Below, piece by piece: positions 20,468 through 35,134 of a stretch of 64,000 nt of DNA. The position numbers and the translations under genes are program-made. This DNA comes from Pseudomonadota bacterium (GTDB taxonomy: Bacteria > Pseudomonadota > Gammaproteobacteria > Burkholderiales > Burkholderiaceae_C): NCBI GenBank assembly GCA_021808525.1, contig JAKBBK010000002.1:26536-90535 (forward strand), read 5' to 3'. The notes under the pieces were generated by a model. It was not told the DNA's origin. It worked only from the letters and a program-made list of their open reading frames with translations, and made no database searches. The first letter of the stretch is position 1; every line of letters starts with the position of its first letter.

Positions 20468-20980
20468 TCAGTGCAGCATTCCGGTGAGCAGCAGATAGCC
20501 CGGCAGCCAGCCCGTGAGAATGCCTTCGAGTACCGTGACCATGCCCACGAAGCGGCCAATGGGCTTTTGCATCACCAGGAGAACGAAGAACAGCAGCCAC
20601 AGCACGGCCCAGGCCGCCCAGCACAGGCCCAGCCAGGTTCCCCACAGGGTGGTGGCGCCCTGCAGGGTCTGCACCGACACCGGCACCGCGGTGATGGCCA
20701 CGAACAGGCAGAACCAACCCAGCCCGCGCCCATCGGCACCGTTGTAGCGATTGATGGCTACCCAGAAGTAGGTGAAGGTGAACAGCAGGGTCAAGGCGGC
20801 CGCCTTGATGCTCGCGTCGTTGGAGCCCGGGCCGAAGGCCAGGTACAGCGACACCAGCAGGGTGATGCCCCCCACGAACACGTCGATCACCGCGATTTCG
20901 TTGTCGCCGATCTGCCCGATCAGCCACAGGCCGTTCAGGCAGAGCACCGCGCCCACGTACAGCAAGACCAGACCCAGCAT
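20468..20980 (-). CDS. AmiS/UreI-family amide or urea channel
   Basis: A 170-residue inner-membrane protein of six hydrophobic helices, the size and pattern of AmiS/UreI (LVLLYVGAVLCLNGLWLIG at the N-terminus; FTFTYFWVAINRYNGAD and FLLLTGMLH-like end). These proteins form proton-gated or ungated channels for urea and short-chain amides. The ATG at 20980 was preferred over an upstream one because AGGGAG lies 6 bases before it and the first helix begins at once, as in the family. Placed after formamidase, it probably admits formamide or acetamide to the cytosol. Two hairpins separate it from fmdA. Confidence 0.9.
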   Translation of the reverse strand: MLGLVLLYVGAVLCLNGLWLIGQIGDNEIAVIDVFVGGITLLVSLYLAFGPGSNDASIKAAALTLLFTFTYFWVAINRYNGADGRGLGWFCLFVAITAVPVSVQTLQGATTLWGTWLGLCWAAWAVLWLLFFVLLVMQKPIGRFVGMVTVLEGILTGWLPGYLLLTGMLH

Positions 20981-21013
20981 GACGAACTCCCTGGAAGTGA
21001 TTCTGCGCATGAT

Positions 21014-21044
21014 CCGGGCCGCCCCGCATTGCGGCGCGGCCCGG
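21014..21044 (-). terminator. Hairpin between formamidase and AmiS genes (second)
   Basis: CCGGGCCGC (21014-21022) pairs with GCGGCCCGG (21036-21044) around a 13-base loop. With the next hairpin it could protect or attenuate the transcript between fmdA and the channel gene. Confidence 0.4.
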
Positions 21045-21064
21045 CTGAGGCGGGGCCTCGGTTC

Positions 21065-21087
21065 GCGGGGATGCACGGCATCCCCGC
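21065..21087 (-). terminator. Hairpin 16 bases after the formamidase stop
   Basis: GCGGGGATGC (21065-21074) pairs perfectly with GCATCCCCGC (21078-21087) around the triloop ACG. Located directly downstream of fmdA, it is likely a partial terminator or an mRNA-stability element. There is no T run. Confidence 0.5.
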
Positions 21088-21102: not shown

Positions 21103-22359
21103 TCAGTTGGCCGAGCGCGGAACCTGCAGGCCCTGCTTGACCTGGTGCAGCGGTCCCTTGGCGTTGGGACGGACGTCGAAGTCGAAGATGGAACGCGGGA
21201 TGTAGATGGTCGAGCAGGCGTTGGGAATGTCCACCACCCCCGACAGGCGACCCTCGACCGGGGCTGTTCCCAGGATCATGTAGGCCTGGATGTCCGTGTA
21301 TCCGAACTTCATCAGGTAGTCGATCGCGTGGTTGCAGGCGTTCTGGTAGGCCAGCCAGGAATCCAGGTAATGCTGCTTGCCGTTGGGGTGCACCGACACG
21401 CCGGAGAAGGCCAGCCACTCCGAGTACTGCGGATCGCGCAGCCCCGGCATGAACATGGCGTTCTCGCGGATGCCGTACTTGGCCATGCCGCCCTTGATGA
21501 TGTCGACATGCAGGTCCATGAACCCGCCCATCTCGATCGCCCCGCAGAAGGTGATCTCGCCGTCGCCCTGGGAGAAGTGCAGATCGCCGAAGGACAGCTT
21601 CGCTCCGGGGACGAACACGGGGTAGAAGATGCGGCTGCCGGCGGTCAGGTTCTTGATGTCCTGGTTGCCGCCGTTCTCGCGCGGCGGGGCGGTGCGCGCG
21701 GCCTCGCGTGCCACGCGCTCGAACTCGGCTCCGCTCAGCGAGCCCAGGATGGCGCTGTCGGGAAGCGGAGGCAGCGCCAGCGGAGGCACGCGCATCGGAT
21801 CGGTGGCGATCAGCGCCTTCTCTCGCGCGGTCCACCTGGCCAGCAGCTCGGCCGATGGCGCGGTGCCCATCAGGCCCGGGTGGTGGATGCCCACGTAGGA
21901 CACCTCGGGAATATGGCGCGAGGTCGCCACGTCGCCGTTGAAGTCCCAGATCACCTTGTAGGCGTCGGGGAAGCGCTCGGTGAGAAAGCCCCCGCCGTTC
22001 TTGTTGGCGAACACCCCGGTATAGCCCCAGCCCATGCCGGAAAAGGGCCCCGAGTCCTCCTGGTCGCAGGAGTCGATCTCCAGGATGTCGACCACCAGCA
22101 GGTCACCCGGCTCGGCGCCCTCGACATGGAAGGGGCCGGACAGCACGTGCACCCCGGCCAGCGGGGCGTTGCGCATGTCCTCGGCCGAATCGTCGTTCTT
22201 GATCGCGCCGTCGAACCACTCGCGGCAGTCGGCGCGGAAAGTGTCGCCGGGCTTGACGTGCACGGCCGCCGGAATGTCGGGGTGCCAGCGATTGTGGCCG
22301 ACGATTTTCTGGTCCTTGAACTTCTTGGTGTTGTCGAGGGGAAACAGGTTCTTGGGCAT
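21103..22359 (-). CDS. fmdA: Formamidase/acetamidase
   Basis: A 418-residue protein of the FmdA_AmdA family, full length. Recognisable blocks are HNRWHPDIPAAVHVKPGD at the start, GPFSGMGWGYTG, the metal-binding-type HHPGLMGTAPS, SRIFYPVFVPGAKLSFGDLHFSQGDGE, and CAIEMGG-like sequence. The enzyme hydrolyses formamide (or short aliphatic amides) to ammonia and formate, in the cytosol as a homo-oligomer. GAGGT stands 7 bases before the ATG. It sits between two FmdB-like genes and is followed by an amide channel, as in known formamide-use operons. The cluster is probably induced by amides or nitrogen limitation, possibly by the LuxR protein or the transporter-kinase encoded alongside. Confidence 0.95.
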   Translation of the reverse strand: MPKNLFPLDNTKKFKDQKIVGHNRWHPDIPAAVHVKPGDTFRADCREWFDGAIKNDDSAEDMRNAPLAGVHVLSGPFHVEGAEPGDLLVVDILEIDSCDQEDSGPFSGMGWGYTGVFANKNGGGFLTERFPDAYKVIWDFNGDVATSRHIPEVSYVGIHHPGLMGTAPSAELLARWTAREKALIATDPMRVPPLALPPLPDSAILGSLSGAEFERVAREAARTAPPRENGGNQDIKNLTAGSRIFYPVFVPGAKLSFGDLHFSQGDGEITFCGAIEMGGFMDLHVDIIKGGMAKYGIRENAMFMPGLRDPQYSEWLAFSGVSVHPNGKQHYLDSWLAYQNACNHAIDYLMKFGYTDIQAYMILGTAPVEGRLSGVVDIPNACSTIYIPRSIFDFDVRPNAKGPLHQVKQGLQVPRSAN

Positions 22360-22521: not shown

Positions 22522-22809
22522 TCAGGGTCTGGGCAGCTTCCACAGATCGGGGGTCATGCGCACCTGGCGCCGCGGGGCTCCCGAGGGCGGAAGCGAAGTC
22601 ACCACCTCGGGTTCGTGGCGGCTTTTCTGCGCGCCGTCGATGGCCGTGAACAAGGCGGCGCGACGCCCGATCACCAGCGCGGGCGCGGAAATCACGCGCG
22701 CGGCCTCGCTGCCGCAGACCGGGCAGGCCGCGTGGGAGGGGGCTTCGCCCAGGCGGCGCAGGATCTCGAACGCACCATGGGTGCGGCAGGCGTATTCGTA
22801 CAGGGCCAT
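22522..22809 (-). CDS. FmdB-family zinc-ribbon protein (second copy, one Cys pair altered)
   Basis: A 95-residue protein starting MALYEYACRTHGAFE. FmdB proteins have two CxxC pairs; here the first reads CRTH, so the second cysteine is replaced by histidine, while CPVC is intact. A Cys3His zinc site would still be possible. The tail (PPSGAPRRQVRM...) is longer than usual and shows no motif. GGAGGA stands 5 bases before the ATG. It lies upstream of fmdA on the same strand. The paralogue at 20208 keeps both pairs. Confidence 0.75.
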   Translation of the reverse strand: MALYEYACRTHGAFEILRRLGEAPSHAACPVCGSEAARVISAPALVIGRRAALFTAIDGAQKSRHEPEVVTSLPPSGAPRRQVRMTPDLWKLPRP

Positions 22810-22828
22810 GGATTCCTCCGGTCGATGG

Positions 22829-22853
22829 GGCCGCGGCATCCGCCGCCGCGGCC
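22829..22853 (-). terminator. Hairpin upstream of the second FmdB-like gene
   Basis: GGCCGCGG (22829-22836) pairs with CCGCGGCC (22846-22853) around 9 bases, in the gap between the DUF190 gene and the FmdB-like gene. It may separate the fluoride-exporter unit from the amide unit. Confidence 0.35.
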
Positions 22854-22928: not shown

Positions 22929-23297
22929 TCAGGGCCGCGGTGCCATCTCACCGGAATGGGTGAGGGCAGGCGTGGCGTCCGCCTCATCGGGGCAGCGCGC
23001 GTCCCAGGACACGATGTGGCCGCCCGGCAGCAGCGCTGTCAGCCGCGGCAGCGCGTCCCGCACGACCTCGGGGGAGTCGAAGAACTCCACCACCAGCGGC
23101 AGGTGCACTCCCAGTCGCAGCAGGTCATCGGCATGTGTCTCGCCGCGGCTTCCATAGCCCGCCACGCCGCGGTACACGGTGATCCCACGCACACCGAGTT
23201 CGCCGTGCAGCAACGCGAACAACTCGCGCACCAGGTTGTGGTGGTCGCGATGGTCGCCCTCGCGAAGGTAGATGCGCACCATGGTCACGTCGCTCAT
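22929..23297 (-). CDS. DUF190 protein
   Basis: A 122-residue protein of the DUF190 family: MVRIYLREGDHRDHHNLVRELF, GVRGITVYRGVAGYG, LLRLGVHLPLVVEFFDSPEVV. The fold is ferredoxin-like, similar to PII signalling proteins, and these proteins are typically encoded next to the fluoride exporter CrcB, with which they are presumed to work. Two consecutive ATG codons occur; the second (23297) is better spaced from GGAGG. The start overlaps the crcB stop. The last codons contain one copy of an 18-bp palindrome that also lies upstream of crcB. Confidence 0.85.
   Translation of the reverse strand: MSDVTMVRIYLREGDHRDHHNLVRELFALLHGELGVRGITVYRGVAGYGSRGETHADDLLRLGVHLPLVVEFFDSPEVVRDALPRLTALLPGGHIVSWDARCPDEADATPALTHSGEMAPRP
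22947..22964. promoter_or_regulatory. 18-bp palindrome, copy A (inside DUF190 3' end)
   Basis: CTCACCGGAATGGGTGAG. The arms CTCACC and GGTGAG are inverted repeats. It differs by a single base from copy B at 23813-23830 read on the minus strand. Here it lies within the last codons of the DUF190 gene, just before the intergenic region leading to the amide genes. Confidence 0.55.
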
Positions 23298-23677
23298 CAT
23301 GCACCTCCGATGCCGCGGGCCAGGTACGCGCCCAGCGCGGCGGCGCCGATGCCCAGCACGCAGGAGCCCACGATGTAGAGCAGGGCCTTGGCCGGCTCGC
23401 CCTGCTCGAACAGGCTCAGGGATTCGAGGGAGAAGGTCGAGAAGGTGGTGTAGGCGCCGAGCCCACCGGTCAGGATGCCCGTGCGCAGCGCCGGGGAGAT
23501 GGACAGCCGCTCCAGCGTGAGGAAGAACAGCAGCCCCATGAGGAAGGAACCCAGCACGTTGATCGACAGCGTGGCGAAGGGGAACTGGCGTCCCAGCAGC
23601 CCCTGCACGAACAGGGTCTGCCCGTAGCGCGCGAAGGCGCCGAGCACGGCGAAGGCGGCGATCGAAAGCAGGGTCAT
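23297..23677 (-). CDS. crcB: Fluoride exporter CrcB/Fluc
   Basis: A 126-residue membrane protein with four hydrophobic helices, the size of Fluc/CrcB fluoride channels. Signature stretches are GAFARYG, the pore-lining INVLGSFLMGLLFF, and GILTGGLGAYTTFSTFSLE, which carries the Phe and Thr/Ser residues of the fluoride track. It works as a dual-topology dimer to expel fluoride. GGAGGG precedes the ATG by 8 bases. It is followed with overlap by DUF190 and preceded by a palindrome. I see no fluoride riboswitch in front of it. Confidence 0.9.
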   Translation of the reverse strand: MTLLSIAAFAVLGAFARYGQTLFVQGLLGRQFPFATLSINVLGSFLMGLLFFLTLERLSISPALRTGILTGGLGAYTTFSTFSLESLSLFEQGEPAKALLYIVGSCVLGIGAAALGAYLARGIGGA

Positions 23678-23793
23678 GGCGAAGCCCTCCGCGGCAGCTG
23701 CACGAGGTGGAAGGCATCCTAGGTCGCGGGCGAGGCGCGCGAATCCCGCGCCCGGGGCAAGGCTGCGCGACCAGCGGGGGAGGGGAACTCGAT

Positions 23794-23825
23794 CCGAATG
23801 GGTGAGACGGTTCTCACCCATTCGG
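23794..23825. promoter_or_regulatory. 14-bp perfect inverted repeat between LuxR gene and crcB
   Basis: CCGAATGGGTGAGA (23794-23807) is perfectly complementary to TCTCACCCATTCGG (23812-23825) around CGGT. It begins 12 bases after the LuxR gene stop and could act as a terminator hairpin or as paired binding half-sites; no T run follows. Its right arm is shared with the 18-bp palindrome copy B. Confidence 0.55.
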
Positions 23826-23837: not shown

Positions 23838-24983
23838 TCAGGTCCAGCCGGGGCAGATGCGCGCGTGCAGGTGCACGAGGTCCATCTGGCTGTGGGTTCC
23901 GGTTTTCTGGAAAATCTGCTTGAGGTGGCTGCGCACGGTGTTCTCCGACACGTGCAGCGACGCGGCGATCGCCGCCAGGGAGCGGCCGCCGTAGATCAGC
24001 GAGCTCACCCGGGCCTGCGCCAGCGTGAGCTCGTAGTGCCGCGCGAACACGCAGCGCAGGGCGTCGTGGCTGGCGTTCGCGCAGCGCACCGAGAGCAGCG
24101 CCAGCGGGCGGCGGCTGCCGGCACCGCGCTGGAACACGGGCCCGGTGCGGCGGACCACGACCACCAGCGGCTGCGCGCCGGCCGTGCCGGCGAGGCTCAG
24201 CACCTGGGGCTGCTCCCCGGCCGCGGGGTCGTCGCAGGCGCGCGCGATGGCCTCGCGCAGCCGGCGCTGCTCGGCCGGGTTGGCGGCGCGCAGGGTCTGC
24301 TCCTCGGCGGCCAGTCCGCCGCGCTCCTGCAACAACTGCTCGGCCATGCGGTTGCGGTGCACCAGGCGTGCCTCGCGGCTGACCAGCATGAGCGCCTGCG
24401 ACTCGTCATCGCTCAGCGCCAGCAGGGCCTGGGACATGTCGGCCGCTTCCTGCCAGCGCCACTGGCTTTCGAGCGACAGCGCGACATGCGCCAGCATCTG
24501 CTGCAGCTCCCCGCGCTCGCTGTCACCGAAGCCCTGCCGGGATTCCGAACGCAGGGCACTCAGGAAATGCATGCCCTGGCGGTCGCGGCGCAGCACTCCG
24601 CACAACCTGTGCAGCAGCCCGCGGGGCCGCAGGAAATCCCGGTAGAAATCCGTGCGTCGAAGGTCGTGGGGGCTGATCAGGTCTTCCCCGGCCACCACGC
24701 GGCCCGCCACATAGTCCTCGCTGGACAGGAACCAGGGGTTGCGCGCCGAGAACGCGGCCATCTGGGCACAGAAGTCCGCATCCAGCGGCGCCTCGAACAG
24801 CGCCGACTCGGCACCGCTGTCGAAGTCGTGATGCCCGATCATGACCACGCTGGCGCCCAGGCGCTGGCGCATGCCCTCGAGGGCGGCCGGCCAGGCCTGC
24901 GGGTCGATGCTGGCGCCATGGATCGAGCGCGCGAGATCGGCCAGCGACGCGTGCTCCGGATCGGGCCCATGCGAAGCGTACAT
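23838..24983 (-). CDS. LuxR-family transcriptional regulator
   Basis: A 381-residue regulator. The last 65 residues are a LuxR/GerE helix-turn-helix (YELTLAQARVSSLIYGG then LAAIAASLHVSENTVRSHLKQIFQKTGTHSQ). The N-terminal 300 residues form a PAS/GAF-like sensor region without a receiver aspartate, so it is probably ligand-controlled rather than phosphorylated. The ATG at 24983 has GGAG 8 bases before it; the open frame further upstream overlaps the divergent promoter and is unlikely to be translated. It is divergent from the transporter-kinase gene and upstream of crcB and the amide cluster, making it a candidate local regulator. Confidence 0.85.
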   Translation of the reverse strand: MYASHGPDPEHASLADLARSIHGASIDPQAWPAALEGMRQRLGASVVMIGHHDFDSGAESALFEAPLDADFCAQMAAFSARNPWFLSSEDYVAGRVVAGEDLISPHDLRRTDFYRDFLRPRGLLHRLCGVLRRDRQGMHFLSALRSESRQGFGDSERGELQQMLAHVALSLESQWRWQEAADMSQALLALSDDESQALMLVSREARLVHRNRMAEQLLQERGGLAAEEQTLRAANPAEQRRLREAIARACDDPAAGEQPQVLSLAGTAGAQPLVVVVRRTGPVFQRGAGSRRPLALLSVRCANASHDALRCVFARHYELTLAQARVSSLIYGGRSLAAIAASLHVSENTVRSHLKQIFQKTGTHSQMDLVHLHARICPGWT

Positions 24984-25260
24984 GCCTTGGTCTCCATCGC
25001 CACGCGTGGGTCGTGGCGCGGCGTGCCGTATCCGCGGGGCGCAAGCCCGCGCTCCGGTCCGGACGCCGCCTGTTTGAATTTCGCGCATTATTTGGCCCAG
25101 CGCAGGCGCTGTCAAACCATCTGCAAGGTCTGCTTTCACCCAAACGGATGTTGCACGGCGCAACCGGGCAAGCGACACTTGCGCAGCTTGCATCGCGCAC
25201 GGCCGCCCGCCGTGTCGCTCCGAGCGGGCGCGGAGCGTCCGCAAGACACCATCGAGGACC
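24984..25260. promoter_or_regulatory. Divergent control region, LuxR gene / NCS1-histidine kinase gene
   Basis: 277 bases between divergent starts, more A/T-rich around 25070-25140. A degenerate match to the 18-bp palindrome (TTCACCCAAACGGATG, 25135-25150) lies in the middle. I could not fix a -35/-10 pair with confidence. Confidence 0.4.
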
Positions 25261-27996
25261 ATGAGTCGCAGCCGCAGACAGTACCAGTCCTGGGTGGCCA
25301 ACGAGTCGCTGGAAGACTACGCGCTGCGCTACACGGCCAGTTCCTACCGCCGGTGGAGTCCGTCGGTGGTGGCCAACACCGCGCTGGGCGGGATTTCCTT
25401 CCTGGGGCTGGAGGCGATCGGCGCCAACATCACGCTGAGCTACGGTTTCGGCAGCGCCCTGGCCGCGGTGTTCGCGGTCTCGCTGCTGATCTTCCTGGTC
25501 AGCAAGCCCATCGCCTACTGGTGTGCCGCCGCCAACGTGGACATCGACCTGCTGACCCGCGGCGCCGGCTTCGGTTACATCGGCTCCACGCTGACCTCGC
25601 TGATCTACGCCGCCTTCACCCTGATCTTCTTCGCCATCGAGACGGCCATCTGGGCGCAGGCGCTGCAACTCGGCTTCGGGCTGAACCTGGCGCTGGGCTA
25701 CCTGATCTGCTCCCTGGTGATCCTGCCCATCGTGTTCTTCGGCGTCACCTGGATCAATCGCCTGCAGTCCTGGACCCAGCCGGTGTGGCTGCTGATGATG
25801 GTGCTGCCCTTCCTGTTCATCGTCGGCCGGGACCCGCAGGCGCTCCGCGCCTGGGTCGACTTCCCGGGCCGCGCCGGCACGGGCAGCGGCTTCGACCTGC
25901 TGACCTTCGGCGCGGCCTCCGGGGTCCTGTTCGCGCTCATCGCGCAGATCGGGGAACAGGCCGACTACCTGCGCTTCCTGCCGCCACGCACCGAGTCCAA
26001 CCGCCGCTCGTGGTGGGCCGCCATGGTCGCCGCGGGCCCGGGCTGGATTGTGATCGGTGCCCTGAAAATTCTCGCCGGCGGGCTGCTGGCGGTGCTGGCC
26101 TTGCGCCTGGGCAGCACCGCGGCGCAGGCCACCGAGCCGGTGCGCATGTACTACCACGCCTACCGCGCGATGATGGCGTCGCCGGCGCTGGCGCTGGGGC
26201 TCGCGGTGGTGTTCGTCACCGTCTCGCAACTCAAGATCAATGTCACCAATGCCTACAGCGGCTCGCTGGCCTGGTCGAACTGTTTCGTGCGCCTGGCGCA
26301 CTTCCATCCCGGGCGCGTGGTCTGGCTGGTGTTCAACGTGGTGGTGGCCCTGCTGCTGGCGCTGCTGGGGATCTTCGCCACCCTGCAGCTCGTGCTCTCG
26401 GTCTACGCCACCACGGCGATCGCGTGGATCGGCGCCCTGGTGGCCGACCTGGTGGTACTCAAGCGGGTCGGGATCAGCCCGCCCTACATCGAGTTCAAGC
26501 GCGCCCACCTGTACAACATCAATCCGGTGGGCTGCGGAGCCATGCTGCTGGCCAGCCTGGTCGGGATGCTGGCCTATGCCGGCTTGTTCGGCCGCGCCGC
26601 CTCGGCCTTCTTCGGCTATCTCACCCTGGCCACCGCCTTCTGCGCCGCCATCGGCATCGGCTACGCGACCCGGGGGCGTTACTACCTGGCGCGCCCCGAC
26701 CTGCATTACCGCCATCGCGAGAGCGCCCAGCTGGTGCAATGCTGCATCTGCGAGCGCGAGTACGAGGCACCGGACATGACCGATTGCCCCTTCTACCGCG
26801 GCCCGATCTGCTCGCTGTGCTGCGGCCTCGACCTGCACTGCCATGATCTGTGCAAGACGCCGCAGGCACCCGCCGCCGCGGCCGGTGCTCCGGCGGCCGC
26901 GATCGGCTTCCAGCCCCATGTGCTGCGGCGGGTCGGGCGTTTCCTCGTCCTGTTCGCCGGCACCGCCGCGCTGCTGGGCGCCACCTTCGTGCTGACCTAC
27001 CGCCTGATGGGCCTGGACCGGCAGGGGGCCGATGGCGCCATGGTCAACGTGCTGTGGCGCCTGTATCTGGCCACCCTGCTGCTGGCCTCGCTGGCCGTGT
27101 GGTGGGTGGTGCTGTTCCACGAGGGCAGCGAGCAGGCGGAGCGAGATCTGCTGGAGTCGATGGATGACCTGGAGCGCGCCCGTCGGCATCTGGTCGAATC
27201 GGAAAAACTCGCGGCGCTGGGCGGCCTGGTCGCGGGGGTGGCGCATGAAATCAATACGCCCGCGGGAATCGCCATCAGCACAGCGTCCTTTCTGGGCGAC
27301 CGCACGCGGGACGTGCAGGAGCAGTTCGATCGCGGAAGCCTCGATCCGGGGGAACAGTCGCAGTACCTGCGCGACGCCGCCGACTCGGCCCGGCTTCTGC
27401 AGTCCAACGCCCAGCGCATCGGGCAGCTGGTGCGCAACTTCAAGCGTCTGGGGGTCGACCAGATCACCGAGTCGCGCAGGCGCTTCGAGCTGCGTGCGCA
27501 CGTCGAACAAGTGCTGCGCGAGCTGGCGCCCCGGCTGCAGGCCGCCGGGGTCGAGGTGCGCCTGGACATGCCCGAGGGCATCGAGCTGCACAGCTATGCT
27601 CTGTCGCTGGAGCAGGTGATCAGCAACCTGGTGGTCAACTCCCTGCAGCATGGCTTCGTGCACGCCAGCGGGGGGCGCATCGACATCCAGGCACGTGTGG
27701 TCGAGGAGATCGTGGAATTGCATTACAGCGACAGCGGACCCGGCATCGACCCCGCGCTGCGAGCCAGGGTGTTCGAGCCTTTTTTCACCACCCAGCGCCT
27801 GGCGGGGGGCAGCGGCCTGGGACTGTTCATCGTGCACCAGGTGGTGACCCAGCAGCTCGGAGGCAGTGTCGAGCTGGGCGAGCCGGCGGGGCGGGGCGCG
27901 CATTTCCTGTTGCGCATCCCCCTGCAGGCCCGGCATTCGGGGCGCCTGGGCACGGCGCTGCGCTGGCAGGCGCCGGGAGGCGGCGATGCAGCCTGA
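25261..27996 (+). CDS. NCS1-type transporter fused to a sensor histidine kinase through a Cys-rich module
   Basis: A 911-residue inner-membrane protein. Residues 30 to about 480 form an NCS1-type (purine/cytosine/hydantoin/allantoin) transporter with about 12 helices. Residues 494-531 form a Cys/His cluster: C494, C495, C497, C509, C517, C520, C521, H526, C527, H528 and C531. Two more helices follow (about 555-580 and 600-620). The kinase has an H-box AGVAHEINTPAG with H662, an N-box NLVVNSLQHG near 790, and DSGPGID and GGSGLGLFIVHQ glycine boxes. Such fusions (compare CbrA with an SLC5 transporter) may sense a solute directly or couple flux to signalling. It overlaps the next gene, a response regulator, by 11 bases. 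The likely ligand is a small nitrogen compound, inferred from the adjacent amide cluster. Confidence 0.85.
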   Translation: MSRSRRQYQSWVANESLEDYALRYTASSYRRWSPSVVANTALGGISFLGLEAIGANITLSYGFGSALAAVFAVSLLIFLVSKPIAYWCAAANVDIDLLTRGAGFGYIGSTLTSLIYAAFTLIFFAIETAIWAQALQLGFGLNLALGYLICSLVILPIVFFGVTWINRLQSWTQPVWLLMMVLPFLFIVGRDPQALRAWVDFPGRAGTGSGFDLLTFGAASGVLFALIAQIGEQADYLRFLPPRTESNRRSWWAAMVAAGPGWIVIGALKILAGGLLAVLALRLGSTAAQATEPVRMYYHAYRAMMASPALALGLAVVFVTVSQLKINVTNAYSGSLAWSNCFVRLAHFHPGRVVWLVFNVVVALLLALLGIFATLQLVLSVYATTAIAWIGALVADLVVLKRVGISPPYIEFKRAHLYNINPVGCGAMLLASLVGMLAYAGLFGRAASAFFGYLTLATAFCAAIGIGYATRGRYYLARPDLHYRHRESAQLVQCCICEREYEAPDMTDCPFYRGPICSLCCGLDLHCHDLCKTPQAPAAAAGAPAAAIGFQPHVLRRVGRFLVLFAGTAALLGATFVLTYRLMGLDRQGADGAMVNVLWRLYLATLLLASLAVWWVVLFHEGSEQAERDLLESMDDLERARRHLVESEKLAALGGLVAGVAHEINTPAGIAISTASFLGDRTRDVQEQFDRGSLDPGEQSQYLRDAADSARLLQSNAQRIGQLVRNFKRLGVDQITESRRRFELRAHVEQVLRELAPRLQAAGVEVRLDMPEGIELHSYALSLEQVISNLVVNSLQHGFVHASGGRIDIQARVVEEIVELHYSDSGPGIDPALRARVFEPFFTTQRLAGGSGLGLFIVHQVVTQQLGGSVELGEPAGRGAHFLLRIPLQARHSGRLGTALRWQAPGGGDAA

Positions 27997-29254
27997 GACC
28001 CAGACGACGACCGCGGCCTGCGCACCCTGGAAGGTGCTGCTGGTCGATGACGAACCCGCGGTGCACGAGGTCTCGCAACTGATCCTGCGGGGACTGCGCT
28101 TCGAGGGAGCCGCCGTGGACCTGCTGAGCGCGGCCTCGGCGGCGCAGGCGCGGGACCTGCTCGGGCGCCATCCGGACATCGCGCTGGTGCTGCTCGACGT
28201 GGTGATGGAGACCGACGACGCGGGCATGCACCTGGTCGAATTCGTGCGCCGCAAGCTCGGCAACCACGACATGCAGATCATCGTGCGCACCGGCCAGCCC
28301 GGCATGGCGCCCGAGCGCGAGGTGATCGTCGACTACGAGATCAACGGATACCTGCTCAAGACCGAGATCACCGCGCAACGCCTGCATTCGACGGTCATCG
28401 CGGCGCTGCGCGGCTACAGCCGCGCACGCTCGCTCGGCGGCCATGGCGGCCGAGGCGACGCCGAGGGGCGGGCGCGCGACCTGGAACTGGCCGGGGAGCT
28501 GGACGACGCCGCGCCCGAAGGGCGCATCGTCCTGCAGGCGCAGGCCCAGCTCCGGCTGGACTCGCTGAGCATGTACGGGGTCGAGCTGATCGCCAAGTGG
28601 AAGACTCGTCGCGGTCTGCTGTCGACCGAACAGGTGGCCGATCGTCTGGGCATGGGCGCGCCGCGGGTGCGCACGATGCGCTGGCTGCTCGGGCAAGGCG
28701 TGTCGTGGGCTCGCCATTGGCAGGCCCAGTTCGGCAGCGGGCTGCGGGTGAGCCTTCCGCTGATCGGGGAGTTCCTGGACGACCCCCCGTACCTGCAGCA
28801 ATTGCTGCAGGCCCTGGGCGAGCTGAGCGCTCCCTCGCTGCAGATCGACCTGTGGCTGAGCCAGGCCGTGGTGCAGCGCGCCGAATCCAGTCTGCTCGAG
28901 GCCATGCAACGTCTGCGCCAGACGGGGGTCGGTTTCGTGTTTCGTGACTTCGGCGCGGCGACCATCGCGCTTCCCTACCTGAGCAGCCTGGGCTTCGAGT
29001 CGCTGCGACTGCCGCGGTGCTTTGTCGACGGCGTGGCCGAGGAGCCGCAACGCGCGGCCATGGCGCGCTCGCTGATCGCGCTGGCGCAGACCCTGGGGGC
29101 GCTCACCATCGCCGACGGCGTGGGCTCCGATGCCGACCTCCAGTTCCTGCGCTGGGAAGGCTGCGAGGTAGGCCAGGGGCCGGCCATGGCGCGCGCCAGC
29201 GCGCCCTCGGAGCTGGTCCACGACCTGAACGAAGGCTCGCGCACCGCCCACTGA
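27986..29254 (+). CDS. Response regulator with a catalytically degenerate EAL domain
   Basis: A 422-residue protein. Residues 15-140 form a receiver domain with D21/D22, phospho-acceptor D71 and K125; IIVRTGQPGMAPEREVIV is typical of receivers joined to DUF3369 or cyclic-di-GMP domains. Residues 180-410 align with an EAL domain, but the catalytic residues are lost: EAL reads ELI, the NVSA block reads VSLP, ELTES reads DLWLS, DDFG reads RDFG, LKID reads LRLP and AEGVE reads ADGVG. It therefore cannot be a working phosphodiesterase and may bind cyclic-di-GMP or a protein partner. Its start overlaps the histidine kinase gene, so it is the obvious phosphorylation target. Confidence 0.85.
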   Translation: MQPETQTTTAACAPWKVLLVDDEPAVHEVSQLILRGLRFEGAAVDLLSAASAAQARDLLGRHPDIALVLLDVVMETDDAGMHLVEFVRRKLGNHDMQIIVRTGQPGMAPEREVIVDYEINGYLLKTEITAQRLHSTVIAALRGYSRARSLGGHGGRGDAEGRARDLELAGELDDAAPEGRIVLQAQAQLRLDSLSMYGVELIAKWKTRRGLLSTEQVADRLGMGAPRVRTMRWLLGQGVSWARHWQAQFGSGLRVSLPLIGEFLDDPPYLQQLLQALGELSAPSLQIDLWLSQAVVQRAESSLLEAMQRLRQTGVGFVFRDFGAATIALPYLSSLGFESLRLPRCFVDGVAEEPQRAAMARSLIALAQTLGALTIADGVGSDADLQFLRWEGCEVGQGPAMARASAPSELVHDLNEGSRTAH

Positions 29255-29361: not shown

Positions 29362-29418
29362 GTGTGTTCCACGATGTGAAGCGGTGCTGTCCCATGCACC
29401 ATCCCCTTGGAGGTCACG

Positions 29419-30552
29419 ATGCAACAAGCCATTCTTCCCGGCACGGTCGACGCGATGCGAGCGCCGCCGGCCGCCCAACGATCCGGCGCCACCGCCGCCG
29501 AATCCACCTCCCAGGGCCTGCGCTCGGCGAAGGCGGCCTACACGGTGCGTCGCATCGCTCTCGAGCAACGGAAGGGACTGGCCCTGGTCGAGGCCTCTCC
29601 GCGTGCCGGCGACCTGGTCGTCGCCCGGGTCACGCAGCTGGGCATGCACCAGCACCTGGAATCGGCCGACGGACGCCGGCAACGCCTGTGGCCCGGCGAC
29701 ACCATCGTCGTCGCCTACGGCCAGCGCTACGCGCCGGACCAGTTCGAGGCGGTGATCCCCGAGGATCTTTCCCCCTGTCATCTGGTGGCCGGCGGAGGCG
29801 TGGCCGCCAGGGTCCTGAGCCGGCACGCCAGCATCAAGCCCGCCACGCAGATCACTCCCCTGGGCCTGCTGGCCGACTCCCAGGGCGTGCTCAACCTGCG
29901 GCGCGCTGCCCTGGGAGGCGCCCGCGGGCGTGCGCCCCTGTGCATCGCGGTGCTGGGCTCGAGCATGAACGCCGGCAAGACGACCACCGCCGCCCATCTC
30001 ATCGCGGGACTGCAGCGCGCGGGGATGCGCGTGGGCGCGGCGAAGATCACCGGCACCGGCGCCGGCGGCGACCGCTGGCTCATGCAGGACGCCGGGGCGT
30101 CGCCCGTGCTGGACTTCACCGACATGGGCCACGCATCCACCGCGGGCCTGGATCCGGCGATCGTGGAGCGCATCCTGGGCGATCTCTCGGGACACCTGGC
30201 CTCCACCGGGGTCGATTGCGCGGTCATCGAAGTAGCCGATGGCCTGCTGCAGCGCGAAACCTCGGCGCTGGTGCAATCCCGCCTGTTCGCGAAGGTGGTC
30301 GATGCCGTGGTCTTCGCCGCGCCGGATGCCATGAGCGCCATCGCTGGAGTCGCCTGGCTCGAGCAGCGCGGCCTTCCCGTCGTGGCGGTCAGCGGCGTGC
30401 TCACGGCCTCCCCGCTGGCCACGCGGGAGGCCGGGGCCGCCTTGAAGGTTCCCACCTGCACCATCGAGGAACTCTCGACTCCGGCCGTGCTGTGCGGCGT
30501 GCTTCCCAAGCTGCCCGATCTTCTGGAGCGCCTGCGCCGGCGCGGCGAGTGA
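29419..30552 (+). CDS. P-loop NTPase of unknown function (DUF1611/MobB-like)
   Basis: A 377-residue cytosolic protein. A Walker A loop, GSSMNAGKTTTAAHLI, lies at about residues 178-193, followed by KITGTGAGGDRW and DCAVIEVADGLLQRE, a pattern seen in DUF1611 and MobB-type GTPases. The N-terminal 150 residues form a separate beta-rich domain with no family I recognise. GGAGGT stands 5 bases before the ATG. It is first in a three-gene operon: the next start (hydrolase) overlaps its stop by one base as TGATG. It could act in amino-acid or cofactor handling, but nothing in the sequence settles this. Confidence 0.65.
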   Translation: MQQAILPGTVDAMRAPPAAQRSGATAAESTSQGLRSAKAAYTVRRIALEQRKGLALVEASPRAGDLVVARVTQLGMHQHLESADGRRQRLWPGDTIVVAYGQRYAPDQFEAVIPEDLSPCHLVAGGGVAARVLSRHASIKPATQITPLGLLADSQGVLNLRRAALGGARGRAPLCIAVLGSSMNAGKTTTAAHLIAGLQRAGMRVGAAKITGTGAGGDRWLMQDAGASPVLDFTDMGHASTAGLDPAIVERILGDLSGHLASTGVDCAVIEVADGLLQRETSALVQSRLFAKVVDAVVFAAPDAMSAIAGVAWLEQRGLPVVAVSGVLTASPLATREAGAALKVPTCTIEELSTPAVLCGVLPKLPDLLERLRRRGE

Positions 30553-32659: not shown

Positions 32660-35134
32660 TCAGCCCCCGGTGGCCGTGCCGGCAGTCCGGCTCGCCGAGC
32701 CGAGCTGCTCCAGCATGTGCTCCAGAGCTTGGGGTCGGGCAAGCAGGAATCCCTGGAACCTGCGACAGCCGCTTTCCATGAGAATGCGCCATTGCGCCTC
32801 GTTCTCGACGCCTTCGGCGATGACTCGCAATCCGAGCTTGTCCGCCAGGTCGATGATGGCCACGACAATCGCGCGGGTCTGCCCGTCCGTCTCCAGCGCG
32901 CGCACGAAGGCCTGGTCGATCTTGATCTCGTCGAAGGGGAAATGCCGCAGATACGCCAGGGAGGAAAAACCCGTCCCGAAGTCATCCAGGGATAGCTGAA
33001 AACCCATTTGCTTGAGCAGGCCCATGCGGCGAACCGTGTGCTCCGAGTTGCTGAGCAACATGCCCTCCGTGAGTTCAAGCTTGATCGACTCGGCCCTGGC
33101 GCCGGTGTCCTGCAGGATCTGCGACACCCTGGGCAGGAAGTCCTCGCGGTGGAACTCGCTCGCCGTGACGTTGACCGACAGCGGGGGCCATGGGTGCGCG
33201 GCGGGGCCTTCGCGGGGCATCGACCGAAGGTCCAGGCAGGCGCGGCGCAGCACCCAGCGGCCCACGGCGTCCATCTGGCCGCATTGTTCGGCCAGATCCA
33301 GGAAGGAGCCGGGCCCCAGCAGCCCCTGCTCGGGATGTTGCCAGCGCAGCAGAGCCTCGGCGCCGATCACCCGGCGCTCGTGGTCGAACTGCAATTGGTA
33401 ATGCAGGCGGAACTGCTCGGCCCCGATGGCTTCGCGCAGCGCGCTTTCCGTGGCATGGCGCCGCACCACGGCATCGAGCATCCAGGCCTCGAACACCCCG
33501 ATGGCCCGCGCGGAGTCCTGACGGGCATGGCGGGCGGCGATCGCCGCCCTTCGTACCAGTTCGTGCGCGTCGGTCTCCGAGCCCCGGAACACAACCATGC
33601 CCAGCGTGGTGCGAACGGGCACCAGCTGGCCGGCGACGAGTTGGGGATGAGCGATCGCCGCCTGCAGCGCGACCGCCTGCTCGAGTGCCTGCTCGCGTGC
33701 GTGTTCGATCGTCTGTTCGAGCACCTGATCCACGCCGGCCCCAGCTCCAGGCCGCAGCGGCAGCAAGACACCGAAGCGTGCGTTCTCGATGCGCGCGGGA
33801 GCGCCCCGCGCATCGGTGCAGGCGCGCAGGCGTCGCGCGAACCCACGCAGGAATTCGTCGCCCGCCGAGCGCCCATGGCCCTCGTTGATGGAACCCAGGC
33901 CCTCGAGCTCCAGCAGCGCCACGCAGGCGAAGCCTCCCTGGGCGGCGCTGAGTTCGCCCTCGCGCGCCACGGCCTCCTCGAAGGCCCGGGCGTTGTACAG
34001 CTCCGTCAAGGCATCATGGCGTCGCAGGTGCTCGATGGCGTGCTGCTGCTGCTCGCGCTCGGACAGGTCGATGCCGATCATCAGATGGTTCGGCTCGCTG
34101 TCCATGTCCACATGCACTTGGCGCAAGGACACCAGCAGGGGGAAGCTCATGCCGTCGGAGCGCAGTCCCCGGGTGCGCAGCGCCGGCGCGGCGTGGTTCG
34201 GGTCGCAGCCTCCCTGCATCTGCCCGGCCACGGCGGCGCGCTGCCCGGCGTCGAGCAATCCCAGCAATTCGGTCCCCTCCAGCTCGCTGGCCTGCGAGTA
34301 GCCGAAGGCTTCCAGGAAAGCGGAGTTCACCGTGTGCAGCTTGCCGCGCCGGATCAGCGCGACACAGGCAGGTGCCTGCTCGAACATCGTGCGGAAAAGG
34401 CGCTCGCTTTGCAGGACCGCCAGCTCCAGTTGCTTGCGCTGGGTGATGTCGGCGATCATCACCGCGAAACTGCCGCGTCTCGGCGAGAACACCCGCACGT
34501 GGTACCAGCGGCCGAGCTCGGAGGAATAGTTCTCCAGCTCCCGGGCAGGCGCGCCCAGGGCCACCTCGCCGAAGGCCTGGATCCAGAAGGGCTCCGTGCC
34601 GGGAAGCAGTTCCAGCACGCGGCGCCCCACCAGGTCCCGCGCACGAAGCCCGGTCAGCGCCTCGTAGGCGGGGTTGACCTGGACGAAGCGGTAGTCCACG
34701 GGAGCGCCCTGCTCGTCGGTGAGGATTTCGTGCAGGGCAAAGCCGGTGGTCATGTTCTCGAACAACAGGTTCGGATCGACCAGCGGCGCCTCCTGCGCCG
34801 CGGGCTGCGCTGCACTGCGCAGTCGAGCCAGCCAGGCGCCGTTGGTGTTGCGCTCGAGCAGCTCCAAAAGCACCGTGCGACCGCAGGGAGCCAGGACATC
34901 GGGGCGCAGGGCCAGCAGCAGGGCCTGCCCGGGGCCGTCCGCCGGATCCTGCGCCAGGGCATGCCGCAGGGCCGCGCGCGAAGCCTCGTCCAAGCGATCA
35001 TGCAGCCACATGGGGCCGAACTCGAGCGCCTCGGCGTCCAGCAGCAAAAGCGAACGCGCCTCGCGACTGGCGAAGGCCAGAGCCAGGCCCGGCTCGAGCA
35101 CGACCATCGCGGAAGGCGCCAGATCCTCGCGCAT
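32660..35134 (-). CDS. PAS-PAS-GGDEF(degenerate)-EAL phosphodiesterase
   Basis: An 824-residue soluble protein. It has a PAS-like N-terminus, two PAS domains (about 120-235 and 245-365), a GGDEF-type domain (about 375-540) and an EAL domain (about 565-810). The GGDEF motif is replaced by ENARF near residue 450, so the cyclase is inactive and may only bind GTP. The phosphodiesterase looks active: EAL at 593-595 within GAEALLRWQHP, VNVTA, KLELTEGM, SLDDFGTGFSSL, IKIDQAF and AEGVE are all present. The predicted role is breakdown of cyclic-di-GMP under PAS control. It converges on the MFS gene with an 8-base gap. Confidence 0.9.
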   Translation of the reverse strand: MREDLAPSAMVVLEPGLALAFASREARSLLLLDAEALEFGPMWLHDRLDEASRAALRHALAQDPADGPGQALLLALRPDVLAPCGRTVLLELLERNTNGAWLARLRSAAQPAAQEAPLVDPNLLFENMTTGFALHEILTDEQGAPVDYRFVQVNPAYEALTGLRARDLVGRRVLELLPGTEPFWIQAFGEVALGAPARELENYSSELGRWYHVRVFSPRRGSFAVMIADITQRKQLELAVLQSERLFRTMFEQAPACVALIRRGKLHTVNSAFLEAFGYSQASELEGTELLGLLDAGQRAAVAGQMQGGCDPNHAAPALRTRGLRSDGMSFPLLVSLRQVHVDMDSEPNHLMIGIDLSEREQQQHAIEHLRRHDALTELYNARAFEEAVAREGELSAAQGGFACVALLELEGLGSINEGHGRSAGDEFLRGFARRLRACTDARGAPARIENARFGVLLPLRPGAGAGVDQVLEQTIEHAREQALEQAVALQAAIAHPQLVAGQLVPVRTTLGMVVFRGSETDAHELVRRAAIAARHARQDSARAIGVFEAWMLDAVVRRHATESALREAIGAEQFRLHYQLQFDHERRVIGAEALLRWQHPEQGLLGPGSFLDLAEQCGQMDAVGRWVLRRACLDLRSMPREGPAAHPWPPLSVNVTASEFHREDFLPRVSQILQDTGARAESIKLELTEGMLLSNSEHTVRRMGLLKQMGFQLSLDDFGTGFSSLAYLRHFPFDEIKIDQAFVRALETDGQTRAIVVAIIDLADKLGLRVIAEGVENEAQWRILMESGCRRFQGFLLARPQALEHMLEQLGSASRTAGTATGG

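Follow-up and report, generated by a model that had tools for sequence, protein, structure and literature searches.

A transporter-histidine kinase fusion with an eight-cysteine domain as a probable sensor of urea and other short-chain amides

What does a histidine kinase sense when a whole transporter is fused to its N-terminus? The question is raised by one gene in a 64,000-nucleotide stretch of contig JAKBBK010000002.1 (assembly GCA_021808525.1) from a Pseudomonadota bacterium of the Burkholderiales, hereafter the window, whose numbering is used throughout. The open reading frame at 25261-27996 (+) encodes 911 amino acids without an internal stop and joins an NCS1-fold transporter domain, through a compact Cys-rich domain and two extra helices, to a histidine kinase. 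A preliminary description made from the sequence alone had suggested that the protein could sense a nitrogen solute through transport itself, with the Cys cluster as a possible metal or redox gate, an interpretation that our analysis supports in part. We put the probability at roughly 70% that the fusion works as a transceptor, a sensor histidine kinase whose ligand is urea or another short-chain amide, a reading drawn from comparison of sequences and gene neighbourhoods. It probably controls the nearby formamidase, FmdB and AmiS/UreI genes via the response regulator whose gene overlaps its own.

Architecture and spread of the fusion

The gene can be divided as follows.

25261-27996, + strand: whole fusion gene, NCS1-fold transporter, eight-Cys domain, two helices and histidine kinase (translation, Pfam, AlphaFold, Foldseek)
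25261-26694, + strand: NCS1-fold transporter domain, residues 1-478, with invariant E127 (Foldseek to CodB and Mhp1; NCBIfam cytosine permease match below cut-off; alignment)
26740-26856, + strand: eight invariant Cys in a predicted treble-clef-like domain, residues 494-532 (alignment, Cys-only profile, model, Foldseek)
26917-27120, + strand: pair of additional hydrophobic helices joined by a short loop, residues 553-620 (AlphaFold secondary structure and hydropathy)
27217-27438, + strand: HisKA region, residues 653-726, phospho-acceptor H662 in HEINTP (Pfam match below cut-off; conservation)
27601-27927, + strand: HATPase_c, residues 781-889 (Pfam, 2.2e-22)

A Pfam scan of the protein (E ≤0.001) returned HATPase_c with a second, related ATPase model, and HisKA at a score short of its cut-off (20.3 bits against 26.9), with nothing N-terminal of residue 653. 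The fold of the remainder was read from an AlphaFold2 model of the full protein (m9c76cb7932dd; pLDDT 82, 71-row alignment), which places about 12 membrane helices within the first 470 residues and agrees with the preliminary description in predicting two extra helices behind the Cys domain, at 553-582 and at the start of 592-690. Among the best 50 of 759 Foldseek matches, the carriers were CodB (7qoa, TM score 0.77 and also 0.74) and Mhp1 (2jln, 0.68; 4d1a, 0.70), scored by target against the N-terminal part, and the kinase part superposed on HK853-type structures.

Sequence models recover far less of this relationship. The Pfam NCS1 model PF02133 matched none of the 58 transporter regions of fused relatives. 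The NCBIfam cytosine permease model matched 31 of the 58 (best E 1.4e-9) and gave the window's transporter 16.6 bits, far under its cut-off of 326, and no solved relative of the domain was detectable by sequence at E ≤1. The NCS1 label given earlier thus holds by the structural matches to CodB and Mhp1, although the Pfam and NCBIfam models miss the family. Membership of SLC5, the carrier type of the transporter-kinase CbrA, is unsupported, as Pfam scans of the window protein and the 58 transporter regions gave no SSF match and the fold is that of CodB and Mhp1; the distinction already drawn from CbrA's carrier is therefore upheld. No STAC-named match appeared in the window's Pfam scan or among the 25 of 91 families listed, in a library whose STAC model was not confirmed. 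At the substrate site, the invariant E127 aligns via CodB, by a weak profile match of 52% probability, with Mhp1 Q121, which hydrogen-bonds the substrate (passages of PMC9379551). By the same match, the counterpart of CodB Trp108, at the TM3 position where NCS1 transporters keep an aromatic residue, mostly Trp, is Phe123, a Phe in 90 of 92 aligned rows.

The closest non-fused relative that we found is an NCS1 gene of another genome.

Locus L143, 4949-6442: free-standing NCS1 gene, 497 amino acids, without the Cys cluster (profile search, hhalign, Pfam)

This protein links the fused family to the Pfam model: it matches PF02133 at 3.6e-9 and aligns with the fused family at 27% identity (hhalign 99.9%). 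Its gene overlaps a carbon-nitrogen hydrolase gene (L143 4949-8168), and it is possibly an amide transporter.

Conservation was assessed in a 92-row alignment, the window protein plus 91 others, drawn from 102 matching frames after the window's own locus, the kinase-only loci L104 and L105 and any frames that shared exactly the same first 600 residues had been dropped; near-copies remain. The kinase, described earlier as complete, has intact motifs: H662, N789, N793, D824 and G850/852/854 are conserved in all 89 rows that reach it, with a single exception each at G826 and F838. Mean conservation is 0.72 in the transporter, 0.75 in the Cys domain and 0.43-0.47 in the kinase. Two kinase types stand behind the sensor, with Asn at position 665 in 39 rows and Arg in 50. 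When these labels are placed on a quick transporter tree without bootstrap, 3 to 5 changes are needed, and well-supported branches force 2 to 3. Similarity between the fusion and other kinases of the window's genome is restricted to the kinase part. An antisense open frame of 1260 amino acids (24523-28305, - strand) spans the entire gene and is most probably a shadow frame arising from G+C-rich coding sequence.

A genome-collection scan with six patterns, one of them a peptide from the Cys domain, matched 465 stretches, 433 of which encode some relative; the best 80 were kept, and the nearest named relatives among them are from Thiomonas (L027, 94% identity; L012, 85%), so that the window probably comes from a Thiomonas-like bacterium. 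A match at 1e-60 was present in 18 of 60 kin genomes, a set that contains the window's genome, and covered just the kinase in two of the 18; within the genus, the fusion is 82-94% identical in seven genomes and 68% identical in one more. The transporter was detected at 1e-20 in 52 of 398 Pseudomonadota genomes, again counting the window's own. Relatives about 40-50% identical retain transporter, Cys domain and kinase across the three phyla spanned by the 92-row tree (Pseudomonadota, Cyanobacteriota and Myxococcota). A plasmid collection yielded 520 matching records, 340 of them named Klebsiella.

Gene neighbourhood and the likely ligand

What points to the ligand is the company that the gene keeps.

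20468-21076, - strand: AmiS/UreI family amide/urea channel (Pfam)
21103-22359, - strand: formamidase FmdA, above the NCBIfam equivalog cut-off (Pfam, NCBIfam)
22522-22839, - strand: FmdB-family zinc ribbon protein (Pfam, NCBIfam)
23297-23821, - strand: CrcB (fluoride channel type), between FmdB and the LuxR-type regulator (family match)
23838-25301, - strand: LuxR-type regulator, divergent from the kinase, its true start probably inside the open frame (Pfam, flank comparison)
27986-29254, + strand: response regulator with a receiver and an EAL domain that lacks several usual residues, probable partner (Pfam, motif comparison, overlap)

All five genes 5' of the kinase lie on the opposite strand. 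In the window's genome the full-length FmdA match is the one adjoining the fusion gene. Two other contigs hold six partial matches, and a urease gene is found on yet another contig. CrcB is also found near the kinase in several close relatives.

We scored a locus as carrying a marker if it held a formamidase, an aliphatic amidase, AmiS/UreI, three or more Urt genes, or two or more urease genes. Markers were present at 60 of 80 loci, and at 46 of the 53 whose flanks are 7.5 kb or longer on each side; by phylum, they occur at 54 of 62 loci in Pseudomonadota, 6 of 14 in Cyanobacteriota and 0 of 4 in Myxococcota. Many marker-less loci are short-flanked (14 in a first count, one of which, L038, later gained an amidase). 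Counted separately over the 80 loci, there were 53 with formamidase, 35 with Urt, 22 with amidase, 21 with AmiS/UreI and 4 with urease. The 22 amidases are 76-94% identical to one another's reference, and two examples are named aliphatic amidase above the NCBIfam cut-off, as are two UrtA examples above theirs. Around 12 other kinases of the window's genome (189,781 bases, in shorter loci of 3.9 to 19.9 kb each from this one genome), no marker was found.

The same association appears on plasmids. In the four records that we opened (Klebsiella, Chelatococcus, Burkholderia vietnamiensis and Methylosinus), the sensor gene is divergent from a Urt-type transporter and accompanied by formamidase or urease; the Burkholderia transporter is annotated as amino acid/amide, and its binding protein scores above the UrtA cut-off. 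On the Klebsiella plasmid (L109, 7885-17357), where the sensor gene is divergent from urtABCDE and formamidase, an arsenic resistance cluster lies a few kb away.

The neighbourhood narrows the nitrogen solute proposed at the outset to urea and short-chain amides. Of the ligands listed then, urea and formamide are favoured, whereas allantoin, hydantoin and uracil gained no support, their breakdown genes not having been searched for near the loci. With FmdA, FmdB and AmiS/UreI next to it in this window, and no urease, formamide or acetamide would be a likelier ligand here than urea.

The gene for the response regulator starts at an ATG at 27986, preceded by GGAGG, and the kinase stop codon ends at 27996, an overlap of 11 bases; the regulator is probably the partner of the kinase. 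Fetched flanks of the 22 loci at least 59% identical contain a similar response regulator in 18 cases and a similar LuxR-type gene in 21. Compared with a second EAL protein of the window (32660-35134, - strand), the EAL domain of the regulator differs at several motif positions (e.g. RDFGAA against DDFGTG), which we take to be catalytic, and it is probably not a c-di-GMP (cyclic dimeric GMP) hydrolase. Partner genes vary among relatives: hybrid kinases are accompanied by LuxR-type regulators, two cyanobacteria have a MarR-like domain and a Vibrio has a GGDEF-EAL protein. The gene 3' of the response regulator (29407-30552, + strand) has MobB as its sole match, below cut-off (1.5e-4). A defence role was also considered for the locus and set aside, as PADLOC returned no match.

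An eight-cysteine domain tied to the transporter

The cluster described earlier as linking carrier to kinase is present in the translation, with nine Cys (494, 495, 497, 509, 517, 520, 521, 527 and 531) and two His (526 and 528). Its conservation was the test set for it in advance, and the cluster came through in part. The Cys at 494, 497, 509, 517, 520, 521, 527 and 531 are invariant in 92 of 92 rows, and in all 68 rows less than 55% identical to the window protein. Position 495 is Cys in 47 of the 92, position 526 His in 27 and position 528 His in 55, variation that rules out all 11 residues acting as ligands. The exact spacing of the cluster Cys is kept in 90 of 92 rows; the five Cys outside the cluster are retained in 3 to 71.

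Profiles built from the Cys domain alone and the transporter alone were run against the 398 Pseudomonadota genomes, where they found 57 and 58 places, respectively. Every Cys-profile place lies directly behind a transporter place (tables compared by eye), and the sole transporter place without the domain is the free-standing L143 gene. At the thresholds used, the domain therefore occurs nowhere else in these genomes and is always present in the fused family. Three cyanobacterial genomes also hold copies, of about 550 amino acids (frames of 549, 555 and 556), that stop just past the Cys domain.

L036, 321-1964, - strand: stand-alone transporter and Cys domain without kinase
L087, 9965-11614: stand-alone transporter and Cys domain without kinase
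L180, 2672-4309, - strand: stand-alone transporter and Cys domain without kinase

L036 also holds a fused copy, roughly 2 kb from the stand-alone one. Because these kinase-less copies keep the Cys domain and the profile places coincide, the domain is tied to the transporter and not to the kinase.

Modelled alone, the domain reaches a pLDDT of 86 and forms a hairpin, a second hairpin and a helix (strands 491-493, 500-502, 506-509 and 514-517; helix 518-523). Foldseek gave 249 matches at E ≤10; most of the 50 listed are treble clefs of RING, FYVE, PHD, ZZ, LIM and FmdE type, and 2zet_C superposes with a TM score of 0.70 by query and an rmsd of 1.4. Pfam and NCBIfam offered no significant family for the domain, only weak scattered matches (Prok-RING_1 in 3 of 71, best E 0.095). 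In a sequence search of solved structures, most matches were to short runs of C2H2 zinc fingers (best 0.0005, a sum over several fingers), with two RING proteins at 0.48 and 9.5. The model suggests a treble-clef-like domain with two metal (zinc) sites, and this predicted fold suits a structural zinc domain no less than a gate. The predicted order of hairpin, hairpin and helix, with paired Cys, resembles RING, FYVE, PHD, ZZ and Rab-effector zinc domains, but the domain differs from them in being all-Cys with a CC pair and in falling outside the Pfam and NCBIfam families.

Mechanism and alternatives

From the architecture, conservation, linkage, neighbourhood and regulator overlap, we infer a ligand, a metal, a direction of signalling and a set of targets. 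The NCS1-fold domain would bind an extracellular (or entering) short-chain amide, and switching of the transporter core, as in CodB and Mhp1, would shift its cytosolic face. The Cys domain, probably with two metal sites, may couple this movement to the signalling helices, and the two following helices and a coiled coil would then drive autophosphorylation of H662. The phosphate would pass to the receiver of the overlapping regulator, whose apparently non-catalytic EAL domain may act through the neighbouring LuxR-type regulator to switch on fmdA, fmdB and amiS/ureI. A bolder version, in which this is a new transceptor class whose NCS1-fold core recognises acyclic urea and short amides and whose eight-Cys, binuclear domain makes the coupling conditional on metal or redox state, the kinase firing only with both amide and a permissive state, is tentative and seems unlikely to hold in full.

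Several observations weigh against an amide sensor of this kind. The CodB profile match is weak on its own, and CodB Trp108 is replaced by Phe123. Fewer than half of the cyanobacterial loci and none of the myxobacterial ones carry a marker, and 7 of the 53 well-flanked loci lack any (L030 of a Vibrio; L035, L046, L064 and L087 of cyanobacteria; L048 and L063 of myxobacteria). Synteny within close clades partly reflects shared ancestry, with near-copies among the 80 loci, and the ligand may differ between clades, because the markers mix urea and amide genes. The plasmid matches cover less than 80% of the query; the 40 listed reach at most about 57% of it (residue 518) at less than 60% identity. 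Cys conservation in the alignment was partly selected for, since a Cys-domain peptide was among the search patterns; the transporter-only and Cys-only profiles are free of that bias but were built from the same rows. Finally, every Foldseek match of the Cys domain has an E-value of 0.77 or worse.

Among other explanations, the one that survives best is that the transporter domain serves chiefly for uptake, with the kinase reporting its flux, and is not a pure receptor. The far stronger conservation of the transporter and Cys domain than of the kinase would suit it, and the kinase-less cyanobacterial copies could be transporters; CbrA itself transports histidine (passages of PMC13022988). Yet many loci lie beside a Urt transporter or an AmiS/UreI channel (35 and 21 of 80), which would make uptake by the fusion redundant, and we regard a flux reporter as possible but on balance doubtful.

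It is unlikely that the Cys domain acts as a redox switch, through iron-sulfur clusters or thiols, with the kinase answering amide only in a given redox or metal state. Eight invariant Cys would suit two [4Fe-4S] clusters or redox-labile zinc sites, and the C-x2-C-x11-C start may resemble that of the iron-sulfur sensor NreB, but the model resembles the zinc treble clefs that make up most of the listed matches, poor as their E-values are.

Still less likely, in our view, is that the ligand of the transporter domain is one of the classical NCS1 substrates (allantoin, hydantoin, uracil or cytosine), the urea and amide genes serving only downstream steps of its breakdown. Breakdown of allantoin and hydantoin does yield urea or carbamoyl compounds. 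The solved relatives CodB and Mhp1 carry heterocycles (passages of PMC9379551). Against this stand the neighbours themselves, which are formamidase, aliphatic amidase, Urt, AmiS/UreI and urease (allantoinase and hydantoinase were not searched for near the loci), and the NCS1 member MetT, which takes the non-cyclic metformin (passages of PMC13390362). A chance or decayed fusion without shared function, which the missing Pfam match of the transporter and the sub-cut-off HisKA might suggest, is wholly improbable given the same-genus copies, the relatives in three phyla that keep all parts and the intact catalytic motifs.

The preferred reading, an amide-sensing transceptor kinase, has precedents in design. 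CbrA, CrbS and RpuS carry a transporter domain N-terminal to a histidine kinase, as transceptors (passages of PMC13022988, PMC9100948 and PMC5715377), and Ks-Amt5 joins an ammonium transporter to one (passages of PMC5764959). The fusion resembles the CbrA-type SLC5-STAC kinases in this layout, but its carrier is NCS1-fold, the eight-Cys domain and two extra helices replace their linker, Pfam finds no PAS match where CbrA has a PAS domain, and its neighbourhood is one of amide and urea genes. With Ks-Amt5 it shares the fusion of a nitrogen-solute transporter domain to a kinase, Amt there and NCS1 fold here. By analogy it may work like both, and we file it as a member of neither. CodB and Mhp1 have the same fold and alignable substrate-site positions, but neither is known to have a kinase or Cys domain, and PF02133 leaves the fused family unmatched.

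No functional study of this architecture was found in the literature searched, outside which most subscription papers lie, in keeping with the earlier statement that no characterised NCS1-kinase example was known. GrtK/GrtR is an ammonia sensor of another kind, and its authors report finding no Amt module in it (passages of PMC12918730). A figure legend in PMC13296017 lists urea genes together with a hybrid kinase and a LuxR regulator, as annotation; the passages of PMC13209695 that describe a formamidase/urt cluster leave the fusion gene unmentioned, and in PMC10781810, a review of formamide use, the words 'sensor', 'permease' and 'NCS1' are absent.

If the fusion is such a sensor, it would give a testable account of the way in which many bacteria may detect urea and short amides ahead of their genes for Urt, urease, amidase and formamidase. 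It brings to the transporter-kinase fusions a second carrier fold, along with a linker domain that the searched family libraries lack; small and defined as it is, that domain lends itself to studying how transporters signal to kinases. Plasmids, too, carry the sensor part widely, and the four opened records have urea or formamide genes alongside.

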